Assembly: GCA_004369045.1 (NCBI GenBank)
Contig: ML213515.1
Coordinates: forward strand, 849,066-913,065
Source: Heliocybe sulcata
Taxonomy: Eukaryota > Basidiomycota > Agaricomycetes > Gloeophyllales > Gloeophyllaceae
Reading direction: 5' to 3'
Length of the DNA: 64,000 nt
In this document: one piece after another, positions 12,904 to 46,370 of the stretch
How the letters are laid out: each line of letters starts with the position of its first letter
How positions within the stretch are numbered: position 1 is the first letter of the stretch
Program-made: the position numbers and the translations under genes
The notes under the pieces: generated by a model
The model's database searches: none
The model's input: only the letters and a program-made list of their open reading frames with translations
Told to the model about the DNA's origin: nothing

Positions 12904-14691
12904 ATGGTACGAATGCGCATCAACGGCAGGGAGTTCAACACCTCCGTGCCACGGCCGGTCGACTTACCCCCCGAGTTGCTCGGAGCAATATTCTTATTCC
13001 TGCAGAAAGATGCAATGCGGGACAGCGGATGTTTACCTTACACCTGGACCACTGTCACGCTGGTCAGCAAAGCCTGGCGCGCCGCCGCCCTCCAATACAA
13101 GACGCTATGGACTACAGTATCAGCGTCTGCCAAGAACCCAGATGCCTTAGAATGTTTTCTTGCTCGCTCTATCCAGCAACCCTTGACCATCATCGGGTCT
13201 CTCGCAGGCAAGAAAAGCGCGTCGAACAGCAAGGTACTAGCGGCGCTCGACAGTACCATCGGAAACCTGAAGATCATGCTCGGGAAGGAGAGGCAGAGGT
13301 TCATGAAATCGGAGCGGGAGGAGATGAGGATGGATTTGCGCTACTGGAAGGACGTGAGGAAGAATATGATTAAGGAAGCAAGAGAAAGGGACATGCAAAA
13401 GTGGGCTCTTCTTCGGCAAGAACTCCCCCGCGTGCGCGCGCTCACCTTAGAGATGTCCTCGCGCATTCTGGCTCAAACCAGCCAGAAGGCCCCTGGAGCG
13501 ATCCTGCTGGAAGACCTCACCATCGTGCGCATCGGCAAAGCGGCACTGGGACAGGCCGACTTGTCCCTCTTCGCGTCACCCGTCTTGAACCGCGTACGGC
13601 TGAGCGGCACGGCCTTTAGCTTCGACGAAATAGGCACGCTGATGAGTGCGACGTTGACGGAGCTCCGAATCTTGGGTACAAATACCGTCATGACCACAGG
13701 CGAGGTGATCCATCTGCTGTCGTGCGTTCCCAAGCTGCGGGCTTTCCGGCTTGGGGTAAGAATCCAACGCACAGCGGAGACCATTGGGCTGGTAAAAAGC
13801 GTCACATTGCAAGATCTGCGCATCCTGGAGGTCAGCCCCTGCAGAACCGGGGAAGCCGACTTGTTGGCATTCGTCAGGACTCCCAATATCAAGCATGTAG
13901 AAATTGGTATATATTCGGGTTTCGAGGACGTGGCGGTGGTCCTGAAGCGATACGCCTGCCGCCTCACATCAGTCGATCTGCGTGGATGCACCATCCAAAT
14001 AGTCGACGGTCGGCGCATCTGTGTCGTGTTCGCACCGGAGGCAGCCTCCACATCTGCTGACACGAAGACCGAAGGGATTACTATTGTGTTCAACCATGAA
14101 TACGGAGATGCAGACCTAATCCTGTACCTCCTCAAGCAGCACCTGCGCTCCCTGCTCGAGTCCGTCCAGTACTTGAGCGTTCGAGATGCACACGGGAATG
14201 CGGATTACATGGCGGCGAAGGCGTGGAGAGAGTGCTTTCTCTCGATGCCCCACATCAAAAAGCTACAGCTGTCAGGGCACAGTGCCTCAGTGATACCTAC
14301 AGGCATCGTATATCCAACCCAAATCGACGGGGCTTTGGTGTTCCATTCTCTTTTCCCGGCTCTGGAGTCGCTGGAGCTGGAGAATGTATGGTTCCGAGAG
14401 CCTTCTCCAGTTATTAATGGTTTGGAGACATACTTCTTCGACAGCCTCGTGTCGTCCATCCGTCATCAAAGTCCGGTGGACAGCGCCGAGGGTCTAAATG
14501 TCCTACTGCCGCGAAGAAAATTTTGTCACTGTTGCGTCAACAATCAACTGAAGCGCTTGACCGTAAGGAGGGCAACCAATCTCTACGAGGACGACGTCGA
14601 CCTCCTCATGTCCATCGTGCCCGCAGTGATGTGGGATCGGCTTGAGAGAACGAGATTACACAGATGGGACGGCCCGGAGGAGGAGGATTAG
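12904..14691 (+). CDS. F-box-like / leucine-rich-like protein 1
   Basis: A single exon encodes 595 residues. The start ATG sits in a good context (GGCCATGG). Residues about 18-65 form an F-box-like domain (PF12937 type): VDLPPELLGAIF, then VTLVSKAWRAAALQYKTLW. A charged coiled-coil segment follows at about residues 105-175, then irregular leucine-rich-like repeats with the recurring pattern of a strand and LRxLxL/LTELRIL. The tail is short and acidic (GPEEED). F-box proteins bind Skp1 in SCF ubiquitin ligases and choose substrates through the C-terminal part; this follows from the family and is not shown here. The domain order F-box, coiled coil, LRR-like repeats, acidic tail is the same as in the genes at 16793 and 22864, so they are diverged paralogs. 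No intron is needed. Confidence 0.82.
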   Translation: MVRMRINGREFNTSVPRPVDLPPELLGAIFLFLQKDAMRDSGCLPYTWTTVTLVSKAWRAAALQYKTLWTTVSASAKNPDALECFLARSIQQPLTIIGSLAGKKSASNSKVLAALDSTIGNLKIMLGKERQRFMKSEREEMRMDLRYWKDVRKNMIKEARERDMQKWALLRQELPRVRALTLEMSSRILAQTSQKAPGAILLEDLTIVRIGKAALGQADLSLFASPVLNRVRLSGTAFSFDEIGTLMSATLTELRILGTNTVMTTGEVIHLLSCVPKLRAFRLGVRIQRTAETIGLVKSVTLQDLRILEVSPCRTGEADLLAFVRTPNIKHVEIGIYSGFEDVAVVLKRYACRLTSVDLRGCTIQIVDGRRICVVFAPEAASTSADTKTEGITIVFNHEYGDADLILYLLKQHLRSLLESVQYLSVRDAHGNADYMAAKAWRECFLSMPHIKKLQLSGHSASVIPTGIVYPTQIDGALVFHSLFPALESLELENVWFREPSPVINGLETYFFDSLVSSIRHQSPVDSAEGLNVLLPRRKFCHCCVNNQLKRLTVRRATNLYEDDVDLLMSIVPAVMWDRLERTRLHRWDGPEEED

Positions 14692-16792
14692 AGCACGGAG
14701 AATGATGGGGAGCGACCACAGAAAGAAGCTTGCAGTGGTTACAGGAAGGACGAACTGGAGGGAATATCAGAAGTCAGCGCTACAGCGCTAGCATCAACGT
14801 TGACTCAACGGTTCCATTGATGTGTAATAGCTGCTGAAGGAAATTTAATCACGTAGGCGCATCTGGGTTACCCATTACTGCACAAGCCTCATGCGAAACG
14901 CTGTAGTTAGGGATAGATATGCAGGCCGCTAAAATGAGGAAGCATTCGCGGCTCTTTCCGAGCTCAGAGCTGGCCATTGGGTCCCTACAGATAGCCTGAG
15001 ATGACCGCGACAGCAGTCTTCGGACAGCACGCATACTACACGAAATGTCGACGCTCTCATCCCTGGTCCGACTATAGCTAATGACGCTGGAAGCTGAGTG
15101 CTGAGCGCTAAGCCTCCGAAAGTCGAAGAGCGACGCCTTAACTAACGTCAGTTTAGGGGGTAAAGTGTGACTGTAACTCTTAGATGAAATCGTGCTTCAT
15201 GGCAATCTGCTATGCCCGATGTGTTACTTGGGCTGCCTCATATCCCTGTGCTACTTGTGTCACATCCATGAGGCCTTCAGTCGCGAATTGAACTACTAGT
15301 CATGGTTTGGGCTCCCTCCTATTAGACAGTCGGAGTGGTGAACTCCGTCCTTATGCGAAGCTCTCTTCAAGGCGTCTGCTTAAGACATCACCCAGACTGC
15401 GTAGCCTCGTAGGTGTATCGCGCTTCCAAAAGGTATGTTAGAATTCTAGTGAGGAAATAAAGTAAAGTGTTGCCAGTCAATCATCACATCATTGTCTTTG
15501 TGCTTGGCTGATGTGAACCGGAAGTCTTTTGCAACGGAACCGGTGTCTGGAGAATCGTGGCTATCAACATTACTGGCGATGCATATGGCCGTCTTGTACG
15601 TCCTCATGTTAATATGTTGTCCCGCTGCTGGTAAAAGCTTTGAAAACAACTGAAGAGCACCATCGACCAGATGTGGAGATTATCCTCACCAGATGGACTC
15701 TAGTTGTCTCTCTCAGCGCTTCGACTAGGACTTCCTCCCAGTGGACGGTCAGCGAACTCTAGCGGAGACGGGCGAGACTCACATCGCAGCTCGGTGCCGT
15801 CGCACAACGCACCTCAGTCAGCTCCGTGAGTGTATCTCGTAACGTTGCGAAAGGATTCCAGCCAGCGCACGGCTGAGAACACAACTTGCGGCATCTGCGG
15901 CCTGTGCAGCGTAGGTGCGACACATCTTGTCCGCCGAGATATTGTTGTTTGTGTTGCTCTCATTGAGATGCGGCAGGCATTGGTGCAGAACTAATCTTTC
16001 GTCAAATACTCAGCAGAAAGGATACTTATTGCACTCTGCTTGGATATGTTACACCTTGATCTGCAGCACGAGCGGCGGGTCAGTTGCAATCTTACATTAG
16101 AAGCTTAAGGCGGCCGGCCCAGGTGGGCATACCCTCCGTTGACCCGCAGAACTGCAGTCGAAATTTCAGCCTCTGTCTCCGCGTCACTTCGATCTTTGCA
16201 TAGCACATTCTTCATTCCTCGTTTTATTTGCATATTTGTCCTGCGCGCTATATTTCTAAGCCTGCGCCTGTCAACACTGAACTCCGAGTAGCAGTGCAGT
16301 TATATAGCAGTCGCTGCAGGCCAGTAGCAAATGGGAGAGATTGGATACCATCGAAGGAATACAGGGGGCATTAGGTAGAGCAGGAGCTCTACCGACGCGC
16401 GGGTGGCACGAACAAGCGGAGCTCGAAATGGACAATGAGAATGGACGCGTACCACGTGACCGTGATCCCAGCATTTGAGCGGCGTCGCAATCTGACCGCC
16501 ACCTTCACCACTACCCCCGCCATCTTCGCTGCTCGCTCATCACCTTGCTTCAGACAATTTCTCGTCATTAAGCGAATATATCTTACTGCCGACCATGTCA
16601 TACATGTGAGTCTCCGCATCCTGGCTCAGTGCCACAGTTCTAACTGCCACCATCGTCGCCGATTCGCATTGTCACTAGAAACATCACCTCCAAAGATTAC
16701 CTTCTAGTCAAAAGGCCTCGTTACTCCGCCGCACTACCTACCAAGTGAGTCGTCTGCCATATTGGACCGTGCCACAGCTCTGACTGTCGCCG
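14692..16792. other. Intergenic region with duplicated promoter module
   Basis: No gene is supported at 14.7-15.4 kb. About 15443-16080 is related both to 21780-22200 (upstream of the 22864 paralog) and to 30757-31290 (far side of the ICMT gene). From about 16450 the sequence becomes almost identical to the upstream region of the 22864 gene. A CACGTG E-box lies at 16453-16458. Confidence 0.65.
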
Positions 16793-17686
16793 ATGTGGCC
16801 GCTTAGCCCCGTTGTCAGCGACGTCGCCCTCCCTCTAATCCAGTCGAAGAGGACGTCCCGCGAAATCATCGCTAAAATCACCGCCTACGTCGTTGCGGGG
16901 TCGGATAACCAAGAAAAGGCGGTCCTCTCGATGGCGCAGATATGTAAGACGTGGCGGGAGACGCTCATCGATAATCCGAGGATATGGGCCAGGGTTGGAT
17001 TGACAGCGAGCTTCGACGCTCTCCAAGAGACCCTGCTGCGCGCCAAGCGGGTTCCGTTGACCATCACCGGGTCGATCACGCCCAAGCCACTCGAGGAATC
17101 CACGATAGAAGCCCTGAACCAGGAGCTAGCGACGTTTGAAGAATACCTCGAGGTACTGGAGAGGAAGCTCGAGCTCTCGGGGGAGCAGTTGAGGGTCTTG
17201 GGAAAGTTGCGAATGCGAGAGTGGCGGATCTTCGAAGAGGAGGACAGACTCTGTAGGCAGGCGGACCTGGAGCGGGACCAGAGCTTCCACAAGTTAGCGC
17301 TCATACGCCGTCACCTCCACCACACTCAGTCTCTTCACCTCACGATATCATCCACGATCCTGGCGAAGATCGGGCGGACGGATACGCCCAAGGCGATGAT
17401 GCTCGAGGACCTGCAGATCAGGCAGGTGGACTGCGACGGATCCGTCGATCTCTCGCGGCTCGCATCCCCCGTCCTCCGCCGCCTGAAGGTTTCCGGGTTC
17501 CGGTCGTTCGACGACTTTGGCATGCTGGCTTGCTCGATGTTGAGGGAGCTGGATATTAGCAACGTCCATGCGGCCTCAACGACCGGAGCGATCATCGAGC
17601 TGCTGTCTAGGACACCTCTTCTGGAGACTCTGAAGTTGAGCGTCTCACTTCGGCAGACACAGGAGAGCAACTCGCTCATCAAGGTC
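16527..17686. repeat. Identical tract, copy A (partner 22598-23757)
   Basis: Reading both copies side by side I find no mismatch over about 1,160 bases, from just after a T/G difference at 16526 / 22597 to an A/G difference at 17687 / 23758. Outside this tract substitutions are frequent. It covers 270 bases of leader and the first 298 codons. Confidence 0.85.
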
Positions 17687-18640
17687 ATCGCCTTACCGGT
17701 CCTACGTCGGTTGACCCTTCTTGTCAGTAACGTCGGCGAGGCGGACATCCTTACCTTCGTACGCGCCCCAGCTCTCGAGCTCGCGTACATTCATGTTTGC
17801 TGGTCTGCCAAGGTGTCGAAGGTAATCGAAGTCGTCGGGAGGGCGATCGATACCCTTTCGCCGAAGACGTTCCGGGGCTGCACGGTCCGCGGATCGGGTA
17901 TAGAGATGACCGAGTTCATGCTCACATCAGAGACAGCTGCCGTGAAGGCCCCATCTCCAGGTGAGGGCATACATCTAGTGATGGAGGGCTACTACTGGAA
18001 AGACGAAGACGTGGTGGTCGACCTCTTCCGCCACCAGTTCCAGCCCACTCTCTCCGATATTCGATGTCTGAGCATCCAGAACGGACGGGCACGCACAGAA
18101 GAGGCTGTCGAGACATGGAAAGCGTTCTTCCTCGCGATGCCTGCTATCAAGCAGCTACACCTGTCAGGCACCACATCGACACTCCCGACGGGCCTCGTAT
18201 ACCGTGACTTACATGATGGGCATGTGTGCTGGCCGTCGCTCTTCCCTCGGCTGTTATCGGTCGAGTTTGAGGCGGTCTGGTTCCGGAAGTCCTCCGCTGG
18301 TCGTGGCCAAGACCAGGGCAATTTCTTCCGCCGCCTTACGAAGTCATTTGAGCGGCAAATCCAGGGAGACTTCAACAATGAGGATGGCTCCATAGGTCTG
18401 ATAAGATCCTGTCAGCGCTCGAGCGACCTCGAAAACACTAACAGCCTTACCATCACAAAGTGTATCAATATCTTCCAGGAAGATATTATGTTCCTCGATG
18501 AGCTGTTCGCCTACGGAATGTTCCCTAGAGTCTCCTGGGACGGGCGCGAGCAGGAAGAGGGGCCGAGGGAGATAGCAGAAGGATGTCAGGAATATGAGGA
18601 TGAAGATGAAGGCGAAGGCGAGTGGGAGGAAGCGTACTGA
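16793..18640 (+). CDS. F-box-like / leucine-rich-like protein 2A
   Basis: A single exon encodes 615 residues. The F-box-like domain is at about residues 20-72 (REIIAKITAYVV, then MAQICKTWRETLIDNPRIW). A strong coiled coil follows at about 100-170, rich in E, L and R. From about residue 175 the protein has irregular leucine-rich-like repeats (LRRLKVSGF, LRELDISNV, LETLKLSV) and it ends in a very acidic tail. It probably acts as a substrate adaptor of an SCF ubiquitin ligase; this is family inference. Residues 1-298 are identical to the paralog at 22864, whereas roughly one residue in five to six differs after that. The leader has several possible 5' UTR introns (GTGAGT at about 16606 and 16746) but none would add coding sequence in frame. 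Confidence 0.85.
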   Translation: MWPLSPVVSDVALPLIQSKRTSREIIAKITAYVVAGSDNQEKAVLSMAQICKTWRETLIDNPRIWARVGLTASFDALQETLLRAKRVPLTITGSITPKPLEESTIEALNQELATFEEYLEVLERKLELSGEQLRVLGKLRMREWRIFEEEDRLCRQADLERDQSFHKLALIRRHLHHTQSLHLTISSTILAKIGRTDTPKAMMLEDLQIRQVDCDGSVDLSRLASPVLRRLKVSGFRSFDDFGMLACSMLRELDISNVHAASTTGAIIELLSRTPLLETLKLSVSLRQTQESNSLIKVIALPVLRRLTLLVSNVGEADILTFVRAPALELAYIHVCWSAKVSKVIEVVGRAIDTLSPKTFRGCTVRGSGIEMTEFMLTSETAAVKAPSPGEGIHLVMEGYYWKDEDVVVDLFRHQFQPTLSDIRCLSIQNGRARTEEAVETWKAFFLAMPAIKQLHLSGTTSTLPTGLVYRDLHDGHVCWPSLFPRLLSVEFEAVWFRKSSAGRGQDQGNFFRRLTKSFERQIQGDFNNEDGSIGLIRSCQRSSDLENTNSLTITKCINIFQEDIMFLDELFAYGMFPRVSWDGREQEEGPREIAEGCQEYEDEDEGEGEWEEAY

Positions 18641-19735
18641 GACCTCTGAGGACAGATCGGCAAGCAGTCGGCTGCGCCGGGAGATTGGTCTGCAGCCCTA
18701 GACGACAGAGAGGTGCGGGATATGTGCATGGCTGCCTGAGCTTACCGCCAAAGAGGATTCGATGAAATGTAGTATGCAATTTTGTGTCATGAACGAAAGT
18801 GTTTCCTTACATGCTGCGTGCTGTGAACCTAGTGCAAAGCGCACTATAGACCCCTAATAACCAGAACACAGACAGCATAGGCGCGACGGGAGACGTACTG
18901 GACTGTCGCAGGGTACAAGTATCGAGCTTGCCGAGGAAAAAAAGGATGCGACGACCATTAGCCACAAATAAACATCAAATAGCCGCAAAGTTGCGAGAGC
19001 CACACGCCGCACTCTCCAAGGGCGTACGTTTGGCACAGCGCATCGCCCGCCTCTGAGTTCTTGCCGTACTAAGGCTGGTATCCCTGGCCAGTCACTCCTT
19101 GACTTTGCCAGCAACGGGATCCTTAATTGAAGCAAACCAGCCTGTCAGTAACCGTGCGTCTCTTGCATGGTTGTGAACCTGGACTCGCTGGTTGTTACAA
19201 TTCCGCGGTCCATCCGTACATGTACTACACACAAAGTACCCTTGCAATATACATATGTCGTCTGCATTCCTGCTAAGTAGCAAAATATTTCACACACGAA
19301 AAGGTGGTATATTCATTCCGAGAACAAGCGAATATTGCGCGAGATGGACACATCGAGCACTTTGATGCTATAGGCGACAGGATTGAACAAGAGATGCTCA
19401 CTTGTCGGGGCCAGGTGTGGCTTGTGGCTGAGTCGCGTGTAGAAAGTTTCGCGTGAAGAAACAAACATGACCAATCTGACGCGCAACAAAATGCGCCACT
19501 TCTTCATTCTAGCCACTTCAGACCGTCCCTCTGAGTCTGCTCTCTGCTACGCTCAACGCGCAATACCCGCACATTATCTCACTGCTTGAGCGACATCCAG
19601 CATATCACATTTAAAGAAACTCCGAGTCGGTAAGGAGTCTTTCTATGTGTCGTGGTGCGTAGCCTGATTGACGTGCCACATACCTTTTCGTTACAAGCCT
19701 GCGAATTCAACCCACAACTCCATATCATAATCGTT
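18641..19735. other. Intergenic region
   Basis: The left part, to about 19070, is the 3' flank shared with the second duplication unit, including a stretch GCCACAAATAAACATCAAAT found in both. The rest is the leader of the F-box-like gene at 19736. No further gene is seen. Confidence 0.6.
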
Positions 19736-21229
19736 ATGCGCATCATCGACCTCCCGGTAGAAATCCTTTCCTCAATTTTGAAGACCTACATCACCTCTGC
19801 CATACCGACCGATAGCTCCGCGGCTCCCCCACATCCCTCTGGTCCATACGAGTGCATGAAGTTGGAGGTGGTTTGCCGGAAGTTCAAGGACGTCCTGAAT
19901 AGCGATCAGTCAGGATCTATCTGGAGTAACGTCATCATAACATCCGACATTCGTGCCACGGCTGCCATCCTCCAGCGCACCAAACAAGCACCCCTCTTAA
20001 TCACGGGGAATTTGTGGGGCGAGCAGCCGTTCGCGACAATGAAAAATATTCATATGCTCCAAGCCGTCTCACGGCGAATCGTATCGCTCAACATGACCAC
20101 GTCAAGAGCCGCTCTCCGTCTGTGGCACCCCGCGACGGCGCTGGACAGCCTGGAGGTCCTGAAAATCGCTCGAGTCGCCGGTGGCCCACTCCAAAGCGAC
20201 GAAGACCTGCTTCTGACGCGGTTCAAGGCCCCGAAGCTCAAGAAGCTAGAGCTCACCAATTTCACCTGGTCAACGATCGAACCGCTGTTGAGGGGCGACG
20301 TGGAGTGGCTAATGCTGAGAGGAACAATGATGATACCGACAGCTGCATTCTTACAGGCGCTGAATAAGATGCCGAAGCTGCAGGTCTTACAGGTCGAGTG
20401 CATGATGACCACGACTTCGGATGCACGCCCCGCCTATGTCTTCCTTCCCCACCTTCACTGGATTTCAGGTATAATTGGGCATGCAGAGGATGCTGCGTAC
20501 CTCACGTTTATCCACGCACCGGACCTGCGTAACATTGCTATCACCATCGCGCACGAGAACGACGTCGTTCACAAGATGGTCCTGACCATACTGGATCAGA
20601 TGCTAACCTCCATAACCACCAAATCTCCAATACGCTGCGCTGGATTTGCCGTTCCATTTCCCAAGGGAATACACTTGGTCCTAACAGAGGGCAAAATCGC
20701 CTCGTTCCGGGACCTGATCGTGCTCCAGTTCGCGGTCTACACCAACAGGCAGTCAACTACTCTTGGGACAATCGGCCAAGCCTTTGAGCGCACCCTGCAG
20801 AACATCAAGGTGGTGTCCATCCTTGACGGAGAGGTGTGCAGTGGTGATACTGAGGATTCGACAAGGGAATGGGCTAGGTTTTTCAGACGGATGCCGAATG
20901 TGAGGACGTTGCGCGTCCGAGCCGGAGGCGTGAATGCGCTGCGCGGTGGTCTTGACTATGCCCAGGAAGATGGCACGTACGGTCTTATCTTCCCGAAACT
21001 GGAGAAGATCCAGCTGGAGTGCGTCAGGTTCAGACCTTCTGAACAAGGCAAGAAGGCCTTCATCGAAGTCTTGATGAGATCGTTAGCCCGTCACGACATC
21101 GCGCGACAATCGCACAACCTCACCATACTCAATGCGATCCATTTCTATCGCAAGGACTTCGATGCTTTGAAGGACCTAGGCCTCCAGGTCAAATGGGATG
21201 AAATTCAATGCGATGCAGATGGAATATGA
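19736..21229 (+). CDS. F-box-like / leucine-rich-like protein 3
   Basis: A single exon encodes 497 residues from the ATG at 19736. The open frame extends upstream only through a GTG. It opens directly with the F-box-like core (MRIIDLPVEILSSIL, then LEVVCRKFKDVLNSDQSGSI), followed by the recurring WSNVIITSD and the LLITGN motif also seen as LTITGS in the 16793 and 22864 proteins. Unlike those, it has no long coiled coil between the F-box and the leucine-rich-like repeats, and it lacks the acidic tail. It lies between the two copies of the segmental duplication but is clearly diverged from them. Role as SCF adaptor is inferred from family. Confidence 0.8.
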   Translation: MRIIDLPVEILSSILKTYITSAIPTDSSAAPPHPSGPYECMKLEVVCRKFKDVLNSDQSGSIWSNVIITSDIRATAAILQRTKQAPLLITGNLWGEQPFATMKNIHMLQAVSRRIVSLNMTTSRAALRLWHPATALDSLEVLKIARVAGGPLQSDEDLLLTRFKAPKLKKLELTNFTWSTIEPLLRGDVEWLMLRGTMMIPTAAFLQALNKMPKLQVLQVECMMTTTSDARPAYVFLPHLHWISGIIGHAEDAAYLTFIHAPDLRNIAITIAHENDVVHKMVLTILDQMLTSITTKSPIRCAGFAVPFPKGIHLVLTEGKIASFRDLIVLQFAVYTNRQSTTLGTIGQAFERTLQNIKVVSILDGEVCSGDTEDSTREWARFFRRMPNVRTLRVRAGGVNALRGGLDYAQEDGTYGLIFPKLEKIQLECVRFRPSEQGKKAFIEVLMRSLARHDIARQSHNLTILNAIHFYRKDFDALKDLGLQVKWDEIQCDADGI

Positions 21230-22863
21230 TATACCGGAATTGCTGATGGTTAGTTATTGATCTGGTTTGCTGATACACCTACTCACCGACGCCCCGGTCA
21301 TAGGTGTACGGGGATGACGTCCCGGCGAACAGGTCTTTGCCCCAGTAGAGAGATGGATGGCTGATTATCGGGCGTATCAACTGTCCAGAGTAATCAAAAG
21401 CAGTATACGTACCATTTTGTAAGAAAGCCCCATTGAGTCGTATCCGGCGCCCGCGAATCGCTGCACCTGTGATGACCCTACTCAAACACATCTCTGACAA
21501 CATTCGGCAGCCGCAATAGCAATGTGTTCCAGTTGACGATATCCAAGCAGAGTAAGCATGACTACTGTTCAGAAGGCGAGACCAGCGCGAGATGAAGGGC
21601 GCCCAGCAACACCCGGTTCGTTGCGAACCAATGAGAGTTTGTCTTTGGCTCTATTTGCGGCTATGCCACCCACTCTTCCTGCTTCCACCCACATCTTTCA
21701 CGAACGACGAGCTGCTTATACTCGTATCTTGCGCTCAGGATTTGAAAGCAAGCGAAGAGCCTCCTCAATAATACGTGAAGATTGTTTTCACCAGATGGAA
21801 TACAGCCGGCATTTAGGCACTCGAATTGGAACTTGTTCCCAGTGGACGATCAGCGGACTTTAGCGTGGGCGGGTGACTCACGTCGCAGCTCGGTGCTGCT
21901 GTACAACGCACTCTTGTGAGCTCTGTGAGTGGACTACGCAAGTCTAGTGACGGATTGCACCTAACTCACCACTGTAAAAGGTGACACGCTTCAAGAATAT
22001 GCGACCGTGCAACGCAGATGCAAGACATATTGTTCGTCGTGATATTGTCGTTTGTCTTGCTCTCATGGAGATGCGGTAACCGTTCGCTCAGAAGTAATCT
22101 TTCCTCAAGTCCTCAGCAGAAAGGATAGGTATCATATTCTGTTTAGCTATGCTACATCTCTATCTGCAGCACGAGCGGCGGGTCAGTTGCCATCTTGCAT
22201 TAGAACGCGGACGTCTGACCTGTAGAGCCGCGCTCGAGATCTCTACTTCAGCTCTCTATCTCCGTCTCTCCCAGCTTTGCACAGCACACTATTCGTTATC
22301 ATACATATTTGCCTTGTGTGGTGTGCTTATAGTATGTGCCCGAGTCTGGCAACAAGGCACTCCGAGTAGCGGTGCAATCATACACAACGTATTGCAACCC
22401 CGATAGCAAACGTGAAAAATTGGGCACCCTCAAGGGATGCACGAGGCATTGAGTAAAGCAGGAGCTCTACAAACGCGCGCGTGGCGCGAACGTGCGGAGC
22501 TTGAAAAGGACAATACGCGTACCACGTGACCGTGATCCCAGCATTTGAGCGGCGTCGCAATCTGATCTGCCACCTTCACCACTACCCCCGCCATCTGCGC
22601 TGCTCGCTCATCACCTTGCTTCAGACAATTTCTCGTCATTAAGCGAATATATCTTACTGCCGACCATGTCATACATGTGAGTCTCCGCATCCTGGCTCAG
22701 TGCCACAGTTCTAACTGCCACCATCGTCGCCGATTCGCATTGTCACTAGAAACATCACCTCCAAAGATTACCTTCTAGTCAAAAGGCCTCGTTACTCCGC
22801 CGCACTACCTACCAAGTGAGTCGTCTGCCATATTGGACCGTGCCACAGCTCTGACTGTCGCCG
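21230..22863. other. Intergenic region with duplicated leader
   Basis: From about 21780 this is the upstream part of duplication unit B, related to 15690-16450 and then nearly identical to unit A from about 22517. A CACGTG E-box is at 22523-22528. The small frames seen are not conserved between the copies outside the identical tract. Confidence 0.6.
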
Positions 22864-23757
22864 ATGTGGCCGCTTAGCCCCGTTGTCAGCGACGTCGCCC
22901 TCCCTCTAATCCAGTCGAAGAGGACGTCCCGCGAAATCATCGCTAAAATCACCGCCTACGTCGTTGCGGGGTCGGATAACCAAGAAAAGGCGGTCCTCTC
23001 GATGGCGCAGATATGTAAGACGTGGCGGGAGACGCTCATCGATAATCCGAGGATATGGGCCAGGGTTGGATTGACAGCGAGCTTCGACGCTCTCCAAGAG
23101 ACCCTGCTGCGCGCCAAGCGGGTTCCGTTGACCATCACCGGGTCGATCACGCCCAAGCCACTCGAGGAATCCACGATAGAAGCCCTGAACCAGGAGCTAG
23201 CGACGTTTGAAGAATACCTCGAGGTACTGGAGAGGAAGCTCGAGCTCTCGGGGGAGCAGTTGAGGGTCTTGGGAAAGTTGCGAATGCGAGAGTGGCGGAT
23301 CTTCGAAGAGGAGGACAGACTCTGTAGGCAGGCGGACCTGGAGCGGGACCAGAGCTTCCACAAGTTAGCGCTCATACGCCGTCACCTCCACCACACTCAG
23401 TCTCTTCACCTCACGATATCATCCACGATCCTGGCGAAGATCGGGCGGACGGATACGCCCAAGGCGATGATGCTCGAGGACCTGCAGATCAGGCAGGTGG
23501 ACTGCGACGGATCCGTCGATCTCTCGCGGCTCGCATCCCCCGTCCTCCGCCGCCTGAAGGTTTCCGGGTTCCGGTCGTTCGACGACTTTGGCATGCTGGC
23601 TTGCTCGATGTTGAGGGAGCTGGATATTAGCAACGTCCATGCGGCCTCAACGACCGGAGCGATCATCGAGCTGCTGTCTAGGACACCTCTTCTGGAGACT
23701 CTGAAGTTGAGCGTCTCACTTCGGCAGACACAGGAGAGCAACTCGCTCATCAAGGTC
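22598..23757. repeat. Identical tract, copy B (partner 16527-17686)
   Basis: This is the partner of the tract described at 16527. The offset between copies is a constant 6071 bases across it, so it has no indel. The sharp change to frequent substitutions at 23758 inside the reading frame argues for conversion or exchange rather than a recent whole duplication. Confidence 0.85.
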
Positions 23758-24711
23758 GTCGCCTTACCTGTCCTACGTCGGTTGACCCTTCTTGTCAGTA
23801 ACATCGGCGAAGCCGACATCCTTACCTTCATGCGCGCTCCAGCGCTCGAGCTGGCGTACATTCATATCTGCTGGTCTGCCAGGGCATCGAAGGTTATTGA
23901 ACTCGTCGGGAAGGCCATCCATCACCTCTCGCCGAAGACGTTTCTGGGCTGCACAGTCCGCGGGTCGGGAATCGAAACGACCGAGTTCATGCTGACGTCA
24001 GAAGCAGCGGCCGTAAAGACCCCATCATTAGCCGAGGGCGTACATCTAGTGATGGAGGGCTACTACTGGAAAGACGAAGACATGGTGGTAGACATCTTCC
24101 GGCACCATTTCCAGGCCACGCTTCGTGGCATCCAATGCCTTAGCCTCCAAGATGGACGAGCACGAACCGAAGAGGCCGTGCAGACGTGGAAGACGTTCTT
24201 CCTCGCGATGCCGGCCGTCAAGGACCTACATCTGTCAGGCAGCACATCGACACTCCCGACAGGCCTCGTATACCGTGACTTCCACGATGGGCATGTGTGC
24301 TGGCCGTCGCTCTTCCCTCAGCTGTTATCCGTCGAGTTCGAGGCGGTGTGGTTCCGGAAGTCGTCCGCTGGTCGTGGCCAAGACCAGGGCAACTTCTTAC
24401 GCCGTCTTACGAAGTCATTTGAGCGGCAACTTCACGAAGATTTCAACAACGAGGATGGCTCCATGGGTCTGATAAGGTCTTGTCAGCGCTCGAGCGACCT
24501 CGAAAAAGCTCAAAACCTTACAATCACAAAATGTATCAATATCTTTCAGGAAGATATTATGTTCCTCGATTATCTGTTCGCCTGCGGTGTGTTCCCTAGA
24601 ATCTCCTGGGATGGGTGCGAGCAGGAAGAGGGGCCGAAGGAGATAGCAGAAGGAGGTGAGGATGATGACGAAAGCGAAGGCGAGTGGGGGGATGCGGACT
24701 GTGACCTCTGA
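22864..24711 (+). CDS. F-box-like / leucine-rich-like protein 2B
   Basis: A single exon encodes 615 residues, the same length as the 16793 protein. Residues 1-298 (F-box-like domain, coiled coil and first leucine-rich-like repeats) are identical to it. The remaining half differs at about 50-60 positions, including the segments around the GYYWKDED motif and the acidic tail (EDDDESEGEWGD). Both copies keep full open frames. The pattern suggests that both proteins are made, dock to the same ligase and differ in target recognition, which is inference. There is no sign of frameshift or premature stop. Confidence 0.85.
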   Translation: MWPLSPVVSDVALPLIQSKRTSREIIAKITAYVVAGSDNQEKAVLSMAQICKTWRETLIDNPRIWARVGLTASFDALQETLLRAKRVPLTITGSITPKPLEESTIEALNQELATFEEYLEVLERKLELSGEQLRVLGKLRMREWRIFEEEDRLCRQADLERDQSFHKLALIRRHLHHTQSLHLTISSTILAKIGRTDTPKAMMLEDLQIRQVDCDGSVDLSRLASPVLRRLKVSGFRSFDDFGMLACSMLRELDISNVHAASTTGAIIELLSRTPLLETLKLSVSLRQTQESNSLIKVVALPVLRRLTLLVSNIGEADILTFMRAPALELAYIHICWSARASKVIELVGKAIHHLSPKTFLGCTVRGSGIETTEFMLTSEAAAVKTPSLAEGVHLVMEGYYWKDEDMVVDIFRHHFQATLRGIQCLSLQDGRARTEEAVQTWKTFFLAMPAVKDLHLSGSTSTLPTGLVYRDFHDGHVCWPSLFPQLLSVEFEAVWFRKSSAGRGQDQGNFLRRLTKSFERQLHEDFNNEDGSMGLIRSCQRSSDLEKAQNLTITKCINIFQEDIMFLDYLFACGVFPRISWDGCEQEEGPKEIAEGGEDDDESEGEWGDADCDL

Positions 24712-27700
24712 GAACAGACTGGCAGGCAGACGGCGGCGCCGGAGACGGTACTGCGACTCTAGAAGAATACAGAGGTGCTCGATATTTACATGGCTGACCG
24801 AGCTCAGCGCCAGAGGGGATCCGATGGATTGTAGTGTGTAATTTTGTGTCATGAACCAAATGTGTGCTGACATACCGCGGGCTGTGAGCCGAGTGGCAAA
24901 CTGCACGATAGACTCTTAATAACCAGAACCCAGCATCGTATCTGGCAAAGAGTAGCGCAAAGACGCAATGGGAGACGAACTGGACAGGGTAATACCGAGC
25001 TTCCGAATGAAAAAAAGATGCGACGACCATTAGCCACAAATAAACATCAAATAGCCGCAAAGTTACGGGAGCCACCCGCCACAGCCTCATGGGCGTAAGT
25101 TTGCCACAGCCCATGCCCGCTTCTGAGTTCTTGCCCTAATTGTAGACGATCATATAATAGACGAGTTTGCTTCGGAAAGATACAAGAGTGGAGACGTCGA
25201 AGAATCCCTACCTGGCACCCTGTACATGGCACAAAAATGCCCATTAAATCTACTGGGACTGCCTTCAGGAAGTAGGCTCCGGGGCACCGTACAGCAAGAA
25301 AGTGTGATTGAGCGTCATACAGCCATAGGTAACAGCTGAAGTCGTACCTCAAGTAGTGCAGGCAGCCGAGTTGTAACATCAATACAGGAGAGCTTCCTGT
25401 CCGATCTCCACAGACCACCACAACGTCGCAGAAAGACGACATCAATAACAATCTGGCGACGGCCTCTGAGTTCTGAGACGCACCAGTGCCACATCCTTAC
25501 AAACCAATGTACATATGTGCTCGCCGCGGGAGGGCTCGGAGAGGTGGCACGAACAGGCGCGAACGTTTGGAAAGAATTCCAGCGCGAACGGGGAAGAGCG
25601 CCGCTGTGAGGATGTCTCCAGTAATTGTCGACTATCTGCAAGCGGCCTTCGTCTAGAAACGCTGCCTTTGCAATTCAGAAAGCATGGAAAAGCGCGTACG
25701 CGAACAGGTCCGCATATGATACGTCCTTTGTTACTAACGTGCCGTCATTTGACGTCGCGGGGCTGTTATGCGACTCCTTCTCGGGGTGCAGTAGACACAG
25801 TCGCCTCTTAACATACTGGTCTGCAATCGCCTCTGTCGCTACCTAGCCCATGCCGACTTAGCCAGGACAAACCCGGGGAAACGGCTATGCTTCGGTTCCT
25901 CGTGCTGTCCCTTCTCCTTCCCAGACTCAGCTTCTCCCCGCTGGGCGGGATCTGGGTGCTGGATCGAATCCACATTCCGAGGCATGTCATCTGCAGCCAA
26001 TCACGTAGTTCGACGTGATGGAGGGCGTTCTCGTACAACACGAGGCAACGGCGGTCAGGAGCCGCGCTTTATGGTCTTCCCCAATCCACAGAAGAGCACG
26101 CGCGAGCTGTGCATTGGTCGGAGCACCCTGGAAAATTGTACTGCAGGTAGATAGACATATTCATTAGTAATACTACTCAGAAACGCATAGTCGAAGTATA
26201 TACCAGCGCGTTTGAAGGTATCGTTACCAGTTCTGCACCTTCCCCTCGAGCCAACTGATGCCTCGAGCTAGGGCGGCCTGTCCGAAGAGAACAGAAAGGA
26301 CGATGAACATCGTCCCCTTATATACCACACTCTCACCCAGGAGCATTGAGAACTGGATGCCCGAGAACAATTCCTGCCAGTCCTAGTCGGACCGCCACAG
26401 CCGAATCGCTGCTTAGGTACCAGCGCACTTGGATTCAAGCCATCAGATACTAATAATTGAGTAAAGAAAAGGACTACTCCACTGATTCCCAAACATCCGT
26501 CATCCAGCTCATCGCCACCTTTGATCGCCATGCTCCTCCCGCGGACAATTCCTGCTCGCCAACTTCCCATCTCCGGGTCCCGCCATGACATCTTCACGTC
26601 TGTGGCGCCTTGCTTGTCTATCCCTGTACTTGTCCAGGACCTCCTTAACAATCTCCAGCGCCGCTTTTCTGTCTGCCCTCAATTCTTCAGGCGTTTTGCA
26701 TACGACGTGCCCGCTGCATGGCCTGCGAGGCTAGGCGCAAGGCTTGATGCTGGACGGTTCCGCTCTTACACGCCTGAGGCACACATGACAGACATCAGAC
26801 GAAGACACGACGGCGAGCGTTGCGGGTAGGAGAAGAGGTGGCGAGTATGTTTCGCAAGTGCTACTACACCTGTGATTTAAAACGATGTCAGCGGTGATGG
26901 AGGTATGTTCAGTTGGGATAACTTCACGTACTGCGGTTACGCAGACGCGCATATGTCAGTCCCCAGCTTCTCCGAAGACAACTCCCTTTCCTCTGCGGTA
27001 CAGATGTTGAATTGGCCAGGCAGCGGACGCCTGGGCCAGATTGACCAGGGTGTCCTCCCACTCCCTCTTACTGGGTATTCTCTCCTTCCAGAGCATCTGG
27101 CGCAACATGACACGCAGATGGTAGACCGACACGGTGTTCAACTCCTGCGTATACTGCATGCTTTCTCTTCGCTGCCTCGCGAAGGGCTCCCCAATCGCTA
27201 TGATATGGCAAGGCTGTTATAGACAGGTCAACATAATCATCGCCAGCTGACTTCAACGCATACCTACCAAGTTAGCCTGCCCAATTTACGCCCGCAAGTC
27301 ACCGGTCTCCAATCCGCCAATCAGCTCATCGCAGCTGGCTTGTCCAAGCCCATCATTTACTAGTGCCTTCCGGTCTCGATCCTCCCTCTCTACACCTTGT
27401 CCATTCAGCACTTTCCTCACTTCGGGTTGGCAGCCTGGTAGGCCTCGTCTTGTCACCAACAGCGGGAGCTACTGGAACGGTCGGGAGTTCATGCCGGGCG
27501 GTGTCAACGACAGTTTGCTCAGTGAAGGTGAAGAAGAATAAGCTGTTGGAGAATGAGTCAGACTCGAGCGATGATGCCGGGTAAAACATGACAAGAATGA
27601 GGACATCGTTACTAGCCATCTCTCAACAATATAGTTTAGAAGCTTGCAGCACCACATTCGTCGTGGTAAAGGCAGTGCGAACCAGATGTATAGACCGACA

Positions 27701-30034: not shown

Positions 30035-31656
30035 GCGAGAAAGGACGTATAAGAAGCAAGTAGGGCAGCGGCCGCAAAGGGCGTGATATCGACTGCGTTG
30101 CTAGAGCAGGACGGATGACGAGTGTAACTGAGTAGACAGCTGCAGAGTCGCAGAGGATTCCTTTTGAATGTACAGTACATGTTGATCAACACTCAGTATT
30201 GACTGATAGATGACAGTCCAAGGGCGTGAGTACTGAGTGGTAGAACATCAAGATTAATGACGCACATGAGGGATAGCCGCAATATCCTCCATCATTCGTT
30301 CCTCGGCGATACTCCCTTCACGAACAGATGTGCCAGACCTTGCCTAGAATGATGAGGGAATGCAGACTGTAGCAAGCGCTAGTTGCTCGCCTACTGAGTT
30401 CCATTGAGGAGACGTCGCTAGCAATTCCAGTCGGCCGTATCGTTTGTCCACCCCGGCAATCGCCGCGCCCTCAAAAGAAACACATCAGAGCAGCTTGCTA
30501 CTCTCCTCGAACTCTCATGGCTGGGCATCTGAACAATTGGGACTTATGGCAAATAGCTATCACATAACAGCAGCCTAGATATGCAAATGAGCACCTTCGG
30601 TGATTTCGTGCTGTTGTCTTTATATGTTTGAAGGCGCTCATTCCTGATTATTTCACGACAGCCTGGGCATAACTAGTACATCCGTGAACTTTTCGGAAAC
30701 CCAAGCCGCTCTCACAAGGCATGCAGTCCATCATGTCAGTCGACCCTGCACGAATCTTAGTGAGGACGCAAAGTAAAGTACCGCCATGCAATATTCAATC
30801 ATCGCATCATTAATGTCCTTGCACTTGGCCGACGTAGATTGGAAGTCTTCGCAATTGACGTCTTTGCAGGTCTTCCCTGGGCCGTGCTGTCGCTACCCGG
30901 TGATACATCTGCGGCATTTTTACCGTAGGTTCTCATATTGAGATGATATTGTGGCACTCATAAGAAAGCCTGGTCGAACAGACGTGAAGATCGTCCGCTT
31001 TATTTTGGAAAGTCGCATGCTGGGGCCATCATACAACGAGTCTCTCCGGAATCAGCACCTTCTGTGGCCCCTACCGGACGCGGAAGAAGTTCTCTAATAA
31101 ACCCTTCATGCACGAGTCGCTGATGCTATTTCACTTGGCTACAGTTAGCTCGCTCTCAGGTCTGGGTGGACCACATGACGACGCCGACGTGTACTATCTG
31201 CCGAGTCTGGTATTAGCAATTGGGACAGACATCCTGTTCCTTGCGATATCATTGTGTCTTTTTTTCGATGCAGTCGCGGCAGACATCAAGTCCGAACATT
31301 AGTCCTAAAATCTGTACCTGCGATCGCCGAATTTGCGCCTTCCGGGATCAGCCAAGAGGCATTCAGATTGTTCTTCGACATCCCAGGGCTCCAGTTTAGC
31401 TCACTGGGCTATAATGGTCTGTAGTGAACTCGCTAGGAGGGCGCGACCTTGAAGGGGAAGACTTGACCGGAAGGTCAGCGCCGTTATACACGTAGAAAGT
31501 TTGTTGGTAGGGTCAAGGTGCATACTGCCGAGGCTATTGCATCAGCTCTATCGAGCTACAAAGCTCATGGTTCTATCACAAATGTGGTATGCAGATTCTG
31601 TTCATAGAGATATTTGAAGGGAATAGAGCACGCCTCGGCGAGCGTTCCCGCTAGTA
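30035..31656. other. Intergenic region with a third copy of the promoter module
   Basis: Sequence from about 30757 to 31290 is related to 15443-16080 upstream of the 16793 gene, for example the shared AAAGTAAAGT, AATCATC.CATCATT and GGAAGTCTT segments in order. No F-box reading frame accompanies it. From about 31440 the sequence is the 3' flank shared by the two ICMT copies. No gene is called. Confidence 0.55.
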
Positions 31657-33330
31657 TCAATAAACGTAAGGAATCAACTTATACGGCACCCTACTCGCCC
31701 ACTCATCCCATTGCTGCCCAAACTGCTTCCGCATAGCCGCATCCTCATTCACCGGCCTGAACAAACACACGTAATCCAGCCCCAGTCCACCAATCAACGA
31801 CAACCCGACTATCAGTTTACCCAACACCGTATTCAACACGCCGCACTCGCGCAGCCACGAGCCCTCAGAGAACCAGCACAAGCACACTCCGGTAAAGGCA
31901 ACGACGAAGGCGGAGTAGCTCGGGTGACGGACCCAGGAGTAGGGACCGGAGGTGACGAGGGTCTGGTCAGGACGGAAGGAGAGCTGGTAGGTGAAGTGCT
32001 TCCCGAGGGTGACATAGCATTGGTAGCGTATAAGAGAGCCGAAGACAGCGAGCGCGGTGCCCACGATGAATGAAGTGGTGAGGCGGACACGAGGGATGTG
32101 GGAGGGGGACGGGGCGAGGGTAGCAATGACTTCTGAGGTGTAGGGCTCGTAGTGCAAGTGAGCACAGATGAGGACGAGGGACTCGCAGAGCGCGCCCAGC
32201 CATAGCCCATACTGCACATAGTCCTAAGCGTCAGTAAACAGAAAGGAGATAGCAAGAGTACACGCACCTTAAGGATGCTGGGCCACCAGATGATGGCTTT
32301 CTGCCTAAAAGTGGCGTATCCGGAGAAGCGCTTGAGGTCTTCGTCCGGCACAGGCGGATTGGGGTTCGTGAGGCATCGATGCAGGCCAGCAGTCGCAATA
32401 AAGAGAAGGGGTACTCGTGCCAGCGACATGGCGTGCAGTTGCTCAGGCAGATAGGTGCGAGACCGGGCGAGAGTTTAAATGGCCAGCTCGGCCGGCCATC
32501 ATGGATCAGCGCACACACGGAGGTACGGGTTCATCACTCAGGAATGCGCTAACAAGGATTCCCCGTGAGATGAGAAGGCAAAGAGGAACACCGGCGCCCA
32601 CAATGTGTCGTAATCGCGTCGTAACGAGTCTGCGAGACTTAGCTATGCTTTGCCCTCCGCTATCACCATTGCATTCAAGAGACGTAGACAGTAAGCTCTA
32701 AGGCAAGCAGAACGCGAGCATAAGGCTTGATCAGCTTGTGACCGTCGACTCGGATGAGTCAAGATCTTAAGGACGGCTTCGGAGATATTGGTTATGCCTC
32801 GAGGTCATCGGTGCACCGCGCACATGTCTGCTGAAGAGCTAAGTAGTCGGCATCAAGATATGATAGGTATATTGTCGGCGTTGCTGTATATATATCAGGA
32901 GCCCAAGGAAATTTCGGTACTCATGACGTGAATACCGGCCATATCAGCGTCATCGCAGGGCTGCAATTGGATATCGTAGACTTATCTTGTCGGCAGAAGG
33001 GCGAGGATGGTGCACAGGACCCGCTCGTAACTCGTGTTACGATTCCTTTCTTCGCCGGGATCAGGATAAATTGTAAGACCGACAAACGTACCTCCGCTTG
33101 AGGGTTGTCGTACGGCGGAAGTTTGTTGATGCAGCATCCGGTTTATCGCATCCAGCGCCAAGTAAGAGACGCAAACTGTACTTGTAAGGAATGAGGTGCG
33201 GCGGAACAGCGCACGAAGATTCCAGTTGATAATGTAAGGAACACAAGCGTCCGAGTTGCCAGCGATTTCCCACGCAGCATGCTTGAGCACATTCACTACT
33301 GCCAACAGACTGGTACACCATGCTGTCTAT
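31440..33330 (-). repeat. ICMT segmental duplication unit 1 (with 44600-46370)
   Basis: The unit holds the ICMT gene with about 200 bases beyond its stop and about 0.9 kb upstream. In both copies the upstream part contains a conserved run starting near ATTGGATATCGTAGA and ending near ACGAAGATTCCAGT. The two units have the same orientation and lie about 13.2 kb apart. Confidence 0.8.
31657..32429 (-). CDS. ICMT-family protein-S-isoprenylcysteine O-methyltransferase-like, copy 1
   Basis: Two exons, 32429-32268 and 32223-31657, are separated by a 44-nt intron (GTGCGT...CTTAG) and give 242 residues. The family transfers a methyl group from S-adenosylmethionine to a C-terminal prenylated cysteine in the ER membrane. 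The C-terminal half has its signature elements: a GPYSWVRHPSYSAF motif (SAM-binding region), then NEDAAMRKQFGQQWDEW and RVPYKLIPYVY at the end. Several hydrophobic segments fit a polytopic membrane protein, including an N-terminal one (VPLLFIATAGL). Basidiomycetes often carry many such genes and most have no tested substrate. The copy at 44821 has the same intron position and length. The frame is intact. Confidence 0.88.
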
Positions 33331-43988: not shown

Positions 43989-44820
43989 GGTCTGTGGCAC
44001 GGTCGTCGGTCAAAATGAGTATGCTGGGTTGAGGGCCCGAAGGGAATAGACATACCATAGATGGAGATATGGAAGTTACACTGAGGAGAAATTTGGTCTT
44101 GAGAGTTGAAAGATCTGTGTCTCCGTCGGGGTTGATGCAGAATACTGTTCACGATGTCGACGCCCCTTGTGGCACGTTGAATTCCGCAAAGCCGTTCGAG
44201 CTCAGAGGTAAGATACAAAGAGGTAGAAGCAGCAGAGTATCGTTTGCGTGATTAGAGATATGTTGCAGCTTTTGAGATCGTCGTACGCGTAGTCAAGAGT
44301 GCATCGGATGAAAAGGGTCGTGGTCGGCGCTTTCTACTGAGCACGTGACTATGTTTGTCCTTATTAGCCGTGCGGTCGGCGCTTCGCCACACTGACGGGC
44401 CTGACGAGTGCAGCAAAAGATACACTTACCGCTACGTTAATCATGAGCTTAAGGGTTGCTGTAGTATAATATTGGCCTGTGGTTGAAACAAAAAATCTGG
44501 CTTCAGATAAAATCTCGTCGCACCCGATGTACCCTGAAATGTTCCAACTGTTTTTTCGATGTTCCGAATCTCAGTAGGTTTGGCAACCGGGGTCCGTATT
44601 TGACTCCCGAAGAGGGCGAAAACTCGAAAGGAAAGTCTTTGCCAAAAGTTTAGTGCCGTTATACACGTACAGAAATTTCCATCACCGGCAAGTAATCAGC
44701 TCCACCTAGCTCGGACGCCCTCTTTCCCATCACGAGTGTGGTACATCAATCCTGTTCATAGAAGATTTGTCCAATACGCAAAGAGAATACAGCATGCCTC
44801 GGGGGGCGTTCCCGCTGGTG
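43989..44820. other. Intergenic region
   Basis: This holds the leader of the 42123-43988 gene, a CACGTG at 44342-44347, and from about 44600 the 3' flank shared with the other ICMT copy (for example GTGCCGTTATACACGTA, compared with GCGCCGTTATACACGTA in copy 1). No gene. Confidence 0.55.
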
Positions 44821-46370
44821 TCAATAGACGTAAGGAATCAACTTATACGGCACCCTCCTCGCCCACTCGTCCCATTGCTGCCCAAACTGCTTCCGCATAG
44901 CCGCATCCTCATTTACCGGCCTAAACAGGCACACGTAATCCAACCCCAGTCCACCTATCAATGACAGTCCGACTATCAGCCTACCCAACACCGTATTCAA
45001 CACGCCGCACTCGCGGAGCCACGAGCCCTCGGAGAACCAGCACAAGCACACTCCGGCAAAGGCAACGACGAAGGCGGAGTAGCTCGGGTGACGGACCCAG
45101 GAGTAGGGACCGGAGGTGACGAGGGTCTGGTCAGGACGGAAGGAGAGCTGATAGGTGAAGTGCTTCCCGAGGGTGACATAGCATTGGTAGCGTATAAGGG
45201 AGCCGAAGACGGCGAGGGCAGTGCCCACGATGAATGAGGTGGTGAGGCGGACACGGGGGATGTGGGAGGGGGAGGGGGTGAGAGCGGTGATGAGTTCCGA
45301 GGTGTAGGGTTCGTAGTGCAAGTGAGCACAGATGAGGACGAGTGACTCGCAGAACGCGCCCAGCCACAGCCCGTACTGCATATGGTCCTAAGAGTTAGTA
45401 AATGAAAAGAAGGTAGCTATAGCGCACGCACTTTTAGAATGCTGGGCCACCAGGAGATGGCTTTTTGCCTGAAAGTAGCGTATCCGGAGAAGCGCTTTAT
45501 GTCTTCATCCGACGCGGGCGGGTTCGGGTTTGTCAGGCATCGATGCAGGCCAGTAGTGGCAATAAGGAGGAGTGGTACTCTTGTCAGTGACATGAGGTAC
45601 GACTGTCGAGGTAGGAAAAGTGGGAGACTGGGTACATTGCCGAGCGGGTGTTAAATAGAAAACTCGGTCGGCCATCATGGTTTAACGAAGGCGGAGGTAC
45701 GGCTGCACCACAGGAAAATGCGCTAGCAAGAACTCTTCGTAAGATGAGAAGGCCGAGATGAACGCCGTCCGCCACAATGTGTCGTGATCACGTACGCCGG
45801 CTATGAGCTCATGTTTGGCACAGCATGGCTATGATCTGGCTCCTTCCTTCAGCATCGTAGAGATAAAAAGGCACGAACAGTACACCGAGAGCGCAAGCAC
45901 GACGCCGAAAGATGATGATGTGAGTTGGATCGCCGCCGAACTACTCGTGATCAAGAACGACTCCGAATAACTCGAGGTCATCAGGGCACCGTCAAGATAT
46001 GATAGATAGTGTCGGTCTTGCTGTATACAGCAGGAGCTGGAGGAAATTCCGGTACTCATTACGCAAATACGGGCCGTATTAGCGTCATCGTAGGGCCTCG
46101 ATTGGATATCGTAGAGCTATCTTGTCGGCAGAGGCGCGGAGAAGGAGCCGTTCGTAACTCGTGTTATGGTTCCTTTCTTCGAGGGAGTCAGGATAAACCG
46201 TGCGGCCGACAATTGCACCTCCGCTTGAGGGTACGACGAGAGTTTAACGCACCATCAATCGCATCCAGTACCGGAGATAGGCCGGAGTATGAGGAAATGA
46301 GATGTGGCGGAGCAGCGTACGAAGATTCCAGTCAATACAGCGTATTTTCAGGGGGATTTCCTGCAGATCC
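44600..46370 (-). repeat. ICMT segmental duplication unit 2 (with 31440-33330)
   Basis: This is the second copy of the ICMT module, with both flanks recognisable. Coding identity is very high in the C-terminal exon; the flanks have diverged more. Immediately beyond its upstream end lies a relic of an F-box-like gene of the 16793 family. Confidence 0.8.
44821..45593 (-). CDS. ICMT-family protein-S-isoprenylcysteine O-methyltransferase-like, copy 2
   Basis: Two exons, 45593-45432 and 45387-44821, with a 44-nt intron at the same place as copy 1, give 242 residues. The C-terminal exon is almost the same as that of copy 1; differences cluster in the loop around YEPYTSELITALTPSPSH and in the first exon. 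The SAM-site motif GPYSWVRHPSYSAF and the terminal NEDAAMRKQFGQQWDEW / RVPYKLIPYVY are fully kept. It has hydrophobic segments for several membrane passes. Both copies being intact and strongly constrained suggests that both are functional, perhaps with different expression because the promoters have diverged. Protein substrate unknown. Confidence 0.88.

Follow-up and report, generated by a model that had tools for sequence, protein, structure and literature searches.

The duplicated genes and their products

The window is the whole stretch of DNA analysed here, 64,000 bases long, and corresponds to bases 849066-913065 of contig C13 (952,076 bp) in a genome of 31.6 Mb and 51 contigs, which to judge by gene content and size is probably that of a basidiomycete. 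It contains two duplication units on the forward strand, unit A at 15721-19065 and unit B at 21821-25135, which blastn aligns at 86.9% identity. Each unit carries an open reading frame of 615 codons, copy A at 16793-18640 (+) and copy B at 22864-24711 (+). The two are direct duplicates lying 6,071 bp apart, and 557 of the 610 residues compared are the same in both. We describe their product as an F-box/LRR-type protein on the basis of the reading frame, a fold model and a match to PF12937 (F-box-like) that falls below the cut-off in both copies (E about 0.02; 0.022 for A). An older F-box paralog of the same family, H, with 595 codons at 12904-14691 (+), passes that cut-off (E=1.8e-5, 24.9 bits against 24.3) and is 33% identical to A over the protein match. 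A third close copy, C, is intact, has 616 codons and lies on the reverse strand at C13:839851-841691, 7-9 kb to the left of the window; the homology of A to C starts near 16415. Elsewhere in the window a further duplicated pair (31617-32619 and 44781-45793) shows 86% identity, and its exact runs reach 93 bp at most. The contig also holds a large inverted duplication in pieces (C13:725968-742563 and 754871-757519 against 830071-816031), 87-91% identical, one of whose arms contains an N run.

The leader of the A and B genes could include an upstream start and two short introns. Enumeration of splice sites and reading frames gave several models that fit, and the one with two introns starts at 16595 and has an open frame with GT-AG signals. 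On the forward strand it places a proposed exon 1 at 16595-16605, intron 1 at 16606-16678, exon 2 at 16679-16744 and intron 2 at 16745-16818, for which an end at 16806 also fits. Copy B has the same letters as these proposed exons and introns at +6071 (22666-22889), and in the alignment copy C has a 3-base insertion in the proposed exon 2 that keeps the frame.

The fold model, one of AlphaFold2 made from five proteins of the window, has a mean pLDDT of 65. It predicts F-box-like helices at residues 19-65, a helical hairpin at 102-173 and then a succession of LRR-like strands. Confidence is uneven, with averages of 26-53 per ten-residue block in residues 1-60 and values mostly of 63-93 in residues 200-460, and it is low also at residues 292-295. 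Foldseek returned NLRC4 chains as the best matches, with COI1, TIR1 and Skp2 among the further ones. All have TM-scores near 0.2 when scaled to the query; an LRR-like array in these predicted proteins is a likely reading, but the parts align loosely.

An identical tract inside diverged copies

In the alignment of the two units the longest exact run is 1,160 bp, with A 16527-17686 equal to B 22598-23757, both on the forward strand; the next longest is 51 bp (16445-16495). A reading of the sequence by eye had proposed a stretch of about this length free of mismatches and indels, flanked by diverged sequence and ending abruptly within the reading frame, and the alignment bears this out to the base. 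We scored A/B identity in windows of 50 columns, with gaps counted as mismatches. The profile is not smooth: 13 to 45 of the 50 columns match from 15655 to 16440, all 50 match across the whole tract, and 33 to 47 match from 17739 to 18640. In the coding sequence 3' of the tract 127 of 945 sites differ. The differences that adjoin the tract are at 16526 on the left and at 17687, 17698 and 17732 on the right. The right edge, between codons 298 and 299, falls within both reading frames; the first mismatch, at 17687 in codon 299, is one at which A is unique and B agrees with C. The left edge is blurred and weaker than the right one because the adjoining 16440-16526 is also conserved in copy C (2/82 sites differ for A/B, 9/87 for A/C and 5/82 for B/C).

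Copy C gives a yardstick for how much the tract can vary. Over its 1,159 ungapped sites A and B each differ from C at 89 and from each other at none, whereas downstream, over 1,268 sites, there are 185 differences for A/B, 239 for A/C and 218 for B/C. If A/B and A/C differences stood in the same ratio in the tract as downstream, A and B should differ there at 72 sites, and they differ at 0 (Poisson P ~5e-32, Fisher P 1.3e-20). With an upper bound (95%) of 3 differences, the age of the conversion would be below roughly 4% of the A/B divergence. The same is apparent at silent sites. In NG86 estimates the A/B dS rises from 0 in codons 1-298 to 0.39 in the codons that follow, that of A/C from 0.18 to 0.47 and that of B/C from 0.18 to 0.40. 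The proposed introns differ at 0 of 147 sites between A and B and at 7 of 147 from C, and in the part of the tract that would be 5' UTR under the two-intron model 4 of 67 sites differ from C. Since synonymous sites and sites of the proposed introns do differ in C, neither purifying selection nor uniform recent duplication can explain the tract. The sequence-only reading had already argued that uniform recent duplication could not give such a pattern, and the contrast in A/B dS on the two sides of codon 298 upholds it.

Several possible sources and biases of the copied sequence were also considered. A genome search with the tract, to which N stretches are invisible, found two places at 100% and copy C at 92%, thus no third identical copy that could have been the donor. 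A cDNA donor is unlikely if the intron model is right, since the proposed introns of A and B are identical. Comparison with C gave no signal of GC-biased conversion, as 37 of the 89 sites have a strong base in A/B and a weak one in C, and 30 have the reverse. The site patterns around the tract edges do not reveal the direction of transfer.

A second tract and possible smaller exchanges

To place the tract in the context of its cluster we compared C13:692001-952076 (260 kb, with three N runs) with itself, which gave 51 HSPs of at least 250 bp. In two of these the longest exact run is exceptional, 1,160 bp for A/B and 1,473 bp for a pair that we call D and E; in the remaining 49 it does not exceed 212 bp. 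The D/E tract is inverted, with C13:766655-768127 equal to 774553-773081, and is followed after one mismatch by a further 161 bp of exact identity. D and E have reading frames of 617 and 624 codons that are 35% identical to A over the protein matches, and the tract covers codons 18-508 of the 617 of D. Ahead of the tract D and E are unlike at 19 of 313 sites, and beyond it at 41 of 271. In the genome search this tract was found at 100% in two places, with further copies at 93%, 77% and 93%. Copy F (C13:803781-805249, 93%) plays the part here that C plays for A and B, and differs from D and from E alike at 101 of the 1,473 sites.

We used a permutation of polymorphic sites modelled on the idea of GENECONV, with 10,000 rounds. 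Among A, B and C the longest run of A/B agreement takes in 89 of the 405 polymorphic sites, against a permutation maximum of 22. For D/E it takes in 101 of 261, against a maximum of 38. The control pairs are less simple. The longest A/C run has 6 polymorphic sites and was reached in 66 of 10,000 permutations. The longest B/C run has 11 polymorphic sites at which both differ from A, all within 32 bp (18057-18088), a run length that 0 of 10,000 permutations attained with all sites and 5 of 10,000 with the downstream part alone; the permutation control for the other pairs is thus not wholly clean. This run is perhaps a small older exchange, or else a burst of change in A. Fourfold sites are suggestive, and only that, of an older exchange with copy C in codons 1-298, with 21/133 differing there against 38/122 after for A/C (Fisher P 0.005) and 21/133 against 33/122 for B/C (P 0.032). 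In codons 1-100 of A (window 16793-17092) the comparison with C gives 1 difference in 48 fourfold sites and 11 in 100 residues, an unusual ratio drawn from small numbers.

The sequence-only reading had added a functional claim, namely that the exchange keeps the F-box half the same while the target-binding half diversifies. This part does not hold up. The tract edge at residue 298 is not a domain boundary but lies inside the predicted LRR-like array, between the strands predicted at 279-283 and 306-311 and in a stretch of lower confidence. The dN/dS after codon 298 is 0.22-0.26, which is not above the 0.30 (A/C) of codons 1-298, so the C-terminal part taken as a whole gives no signal of diversifying selection. 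The D/E tract, for its part, spans most of its gene. The position of the A/B tract is therefore probably incidental to the protein domains, and conversion in this cluster is probably recurrent and not targeted to the F-box half.

Explanations and significance

The reading that best fits these observations is a recent interlocus gene conversion, in which at least 1,160 bp were copied between old duplicates, and on the sequence comparisons above we hold it to be very probable. A and B would be old direct duplicates whose synonymous divergence had reached about 0.39 substitutions per site before one paralog overwrote the other over at least 1,160 bp, taking in the upstream part and codons 1-298. 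The molecular route could have been a break in one paralog that was repaired by synthesis on the neighboring one. Identity in the tract is far above that of the flanks, its edges lie inside homologous sequence, and it reaches silent and non-coding sites at which C differs. The proposal of gene conversion or exchange in the sequence-only reading is thus supported, both by the yardstick copy and by the second tract, in all but the functional effect it claimed. Two points that speak against conversion are length, as both 1,160 and 1,473 bp are long beside the ectopic tracts of yeast, although C. elegans tracts of up to 2,958 bp are on record, and the blurred left edge of the A/B tract. For D/E, the fair similarity of the two copies just before the tract also counts against it.

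An artefact of assembly, in which reads from one copy were used to close a gap or repeat in the other and so created a false identity, is an unlikely rival, and it is where the remaining doubt lies. C13 does have N runs, at 742684-754482, 847526-849065 and 934651-940327, some of which are maybe not assembly gaps. The window however has no N, and copies that are some 8% apart, as A and C are in the tract, would not normally be merged in assembly. The pattern also appears twice, in a direct and in an inverted pair, though both could still be artefacts. We note in passing that C13 opens with 2,582 N and that the N run at 847526-849065 stops exactly where the window starts. Double unequal crossing-over, or a two-step history of crossovers that left a patch of identity, is much less probable still. 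The direct orientation of A and B would allow unequal exchange, but a single crossover should give an identity that leaves the unit on one side, and both A/B edges are internal; for the inverted D/E pair an exchange would invert the interval between them. The idea that strong purifying selection on the F-box part holds A and B identical has next to nothing left in its favor. The dN from C is indeed lower in codons 1-298 than after them (0.053 against 0.106-0.111), but A and B lack synonymous and upstream differences as well, and C differs at such sites and at 32 of the 298 residues, which refutes it.

A broader variant of the conversion reading would have recurrent events start near the 5' ends of these genes and fade toward the 3' end, leaving a common front and private tails. 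It was suggested by the divergence of A/C at fourfold sites per 100 codons (0.02, 0.18, 0.28, 0.36, 0.35 and then 0.18, with B/C alike) and by the starts of the two long tracts, each of which lies close to the start codon. We find it doubtful. The D/F values (0.14, 0.12, 0.07, 0.26, 0.16, 0.11) show no steady rise from 5' to 3', and neither do the fourfold profiles of E/F, D/H and F/H. Additionally, two tracts would be too few to establish such a polarity, and the counts for A/C and B/C are interdependent. Among the matches listed in a literature search on conversion polarity and paralogs were a paper on maize and one on mouse repeats.

Gene conversion between neighboring duplicates has precedents. 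PMC3966223 describes conversion between the tandem genes fog-2 and ftr-1 of C. elegans with tracts reaching into introns, and a reference title in it names FOG-2 as an F-box protein. As in A and B, these are neighboring duplicates in one orientation that exchange in their shared part and remain different at their 3' ends, with a synonymous divergence of about 28% compared to the A/B dS of 0.39 after the tract. They differ from A and B in that their tracts are 39-145 bp long rather than 1,160 bp and that the 3' end of fog-2 is non-homologous, whereas the 3' part of A and B is homologous and merely diverged. The same paper gives tracts of 12-2,958 bp with a mean of 117 for 7,829 duplicate pairs of C. 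elegans, and conversion in either orientation. For yeast ectopic conversion PMC3924818 gives average tracts of about 200-500 bp and re-estimates of about 50 to several hundred bp. There too a tract is copied between repeats, with non-reciprocity known from the yeast side; those tracts are experimental and average a few hundred bp, and the A/B tract is longer and an evolutionary inference. In plants, PMC6771003 reports intergenic exchange within RPP8, an NLR family, likewise among duplicated genes for LRR proteins, although these are immune receptors with population data. Among the matches listed by a search of titles and abstract openings there was no conversion among fungal F-box paralogs; for F-box expansion in Agaricomycetes and mushrooms this covered the best 12 of 31 matches.

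The A/B tract is present in the assembly and is well supported as gene conversion of an ordinary kind; it adds a clear further case to a process already known, and no new mechanism. Its consequence for work on this family is a practical one. The whole-gene A/B dS of 0.17 is an average of 0 and 0.39, and trees and dates based on whole genes will thus mislead for these paralogs. What the locus presents is a cluster of F-box-type paralogs, tandem as well as inverted, that is being reshuffled by recent conversion.
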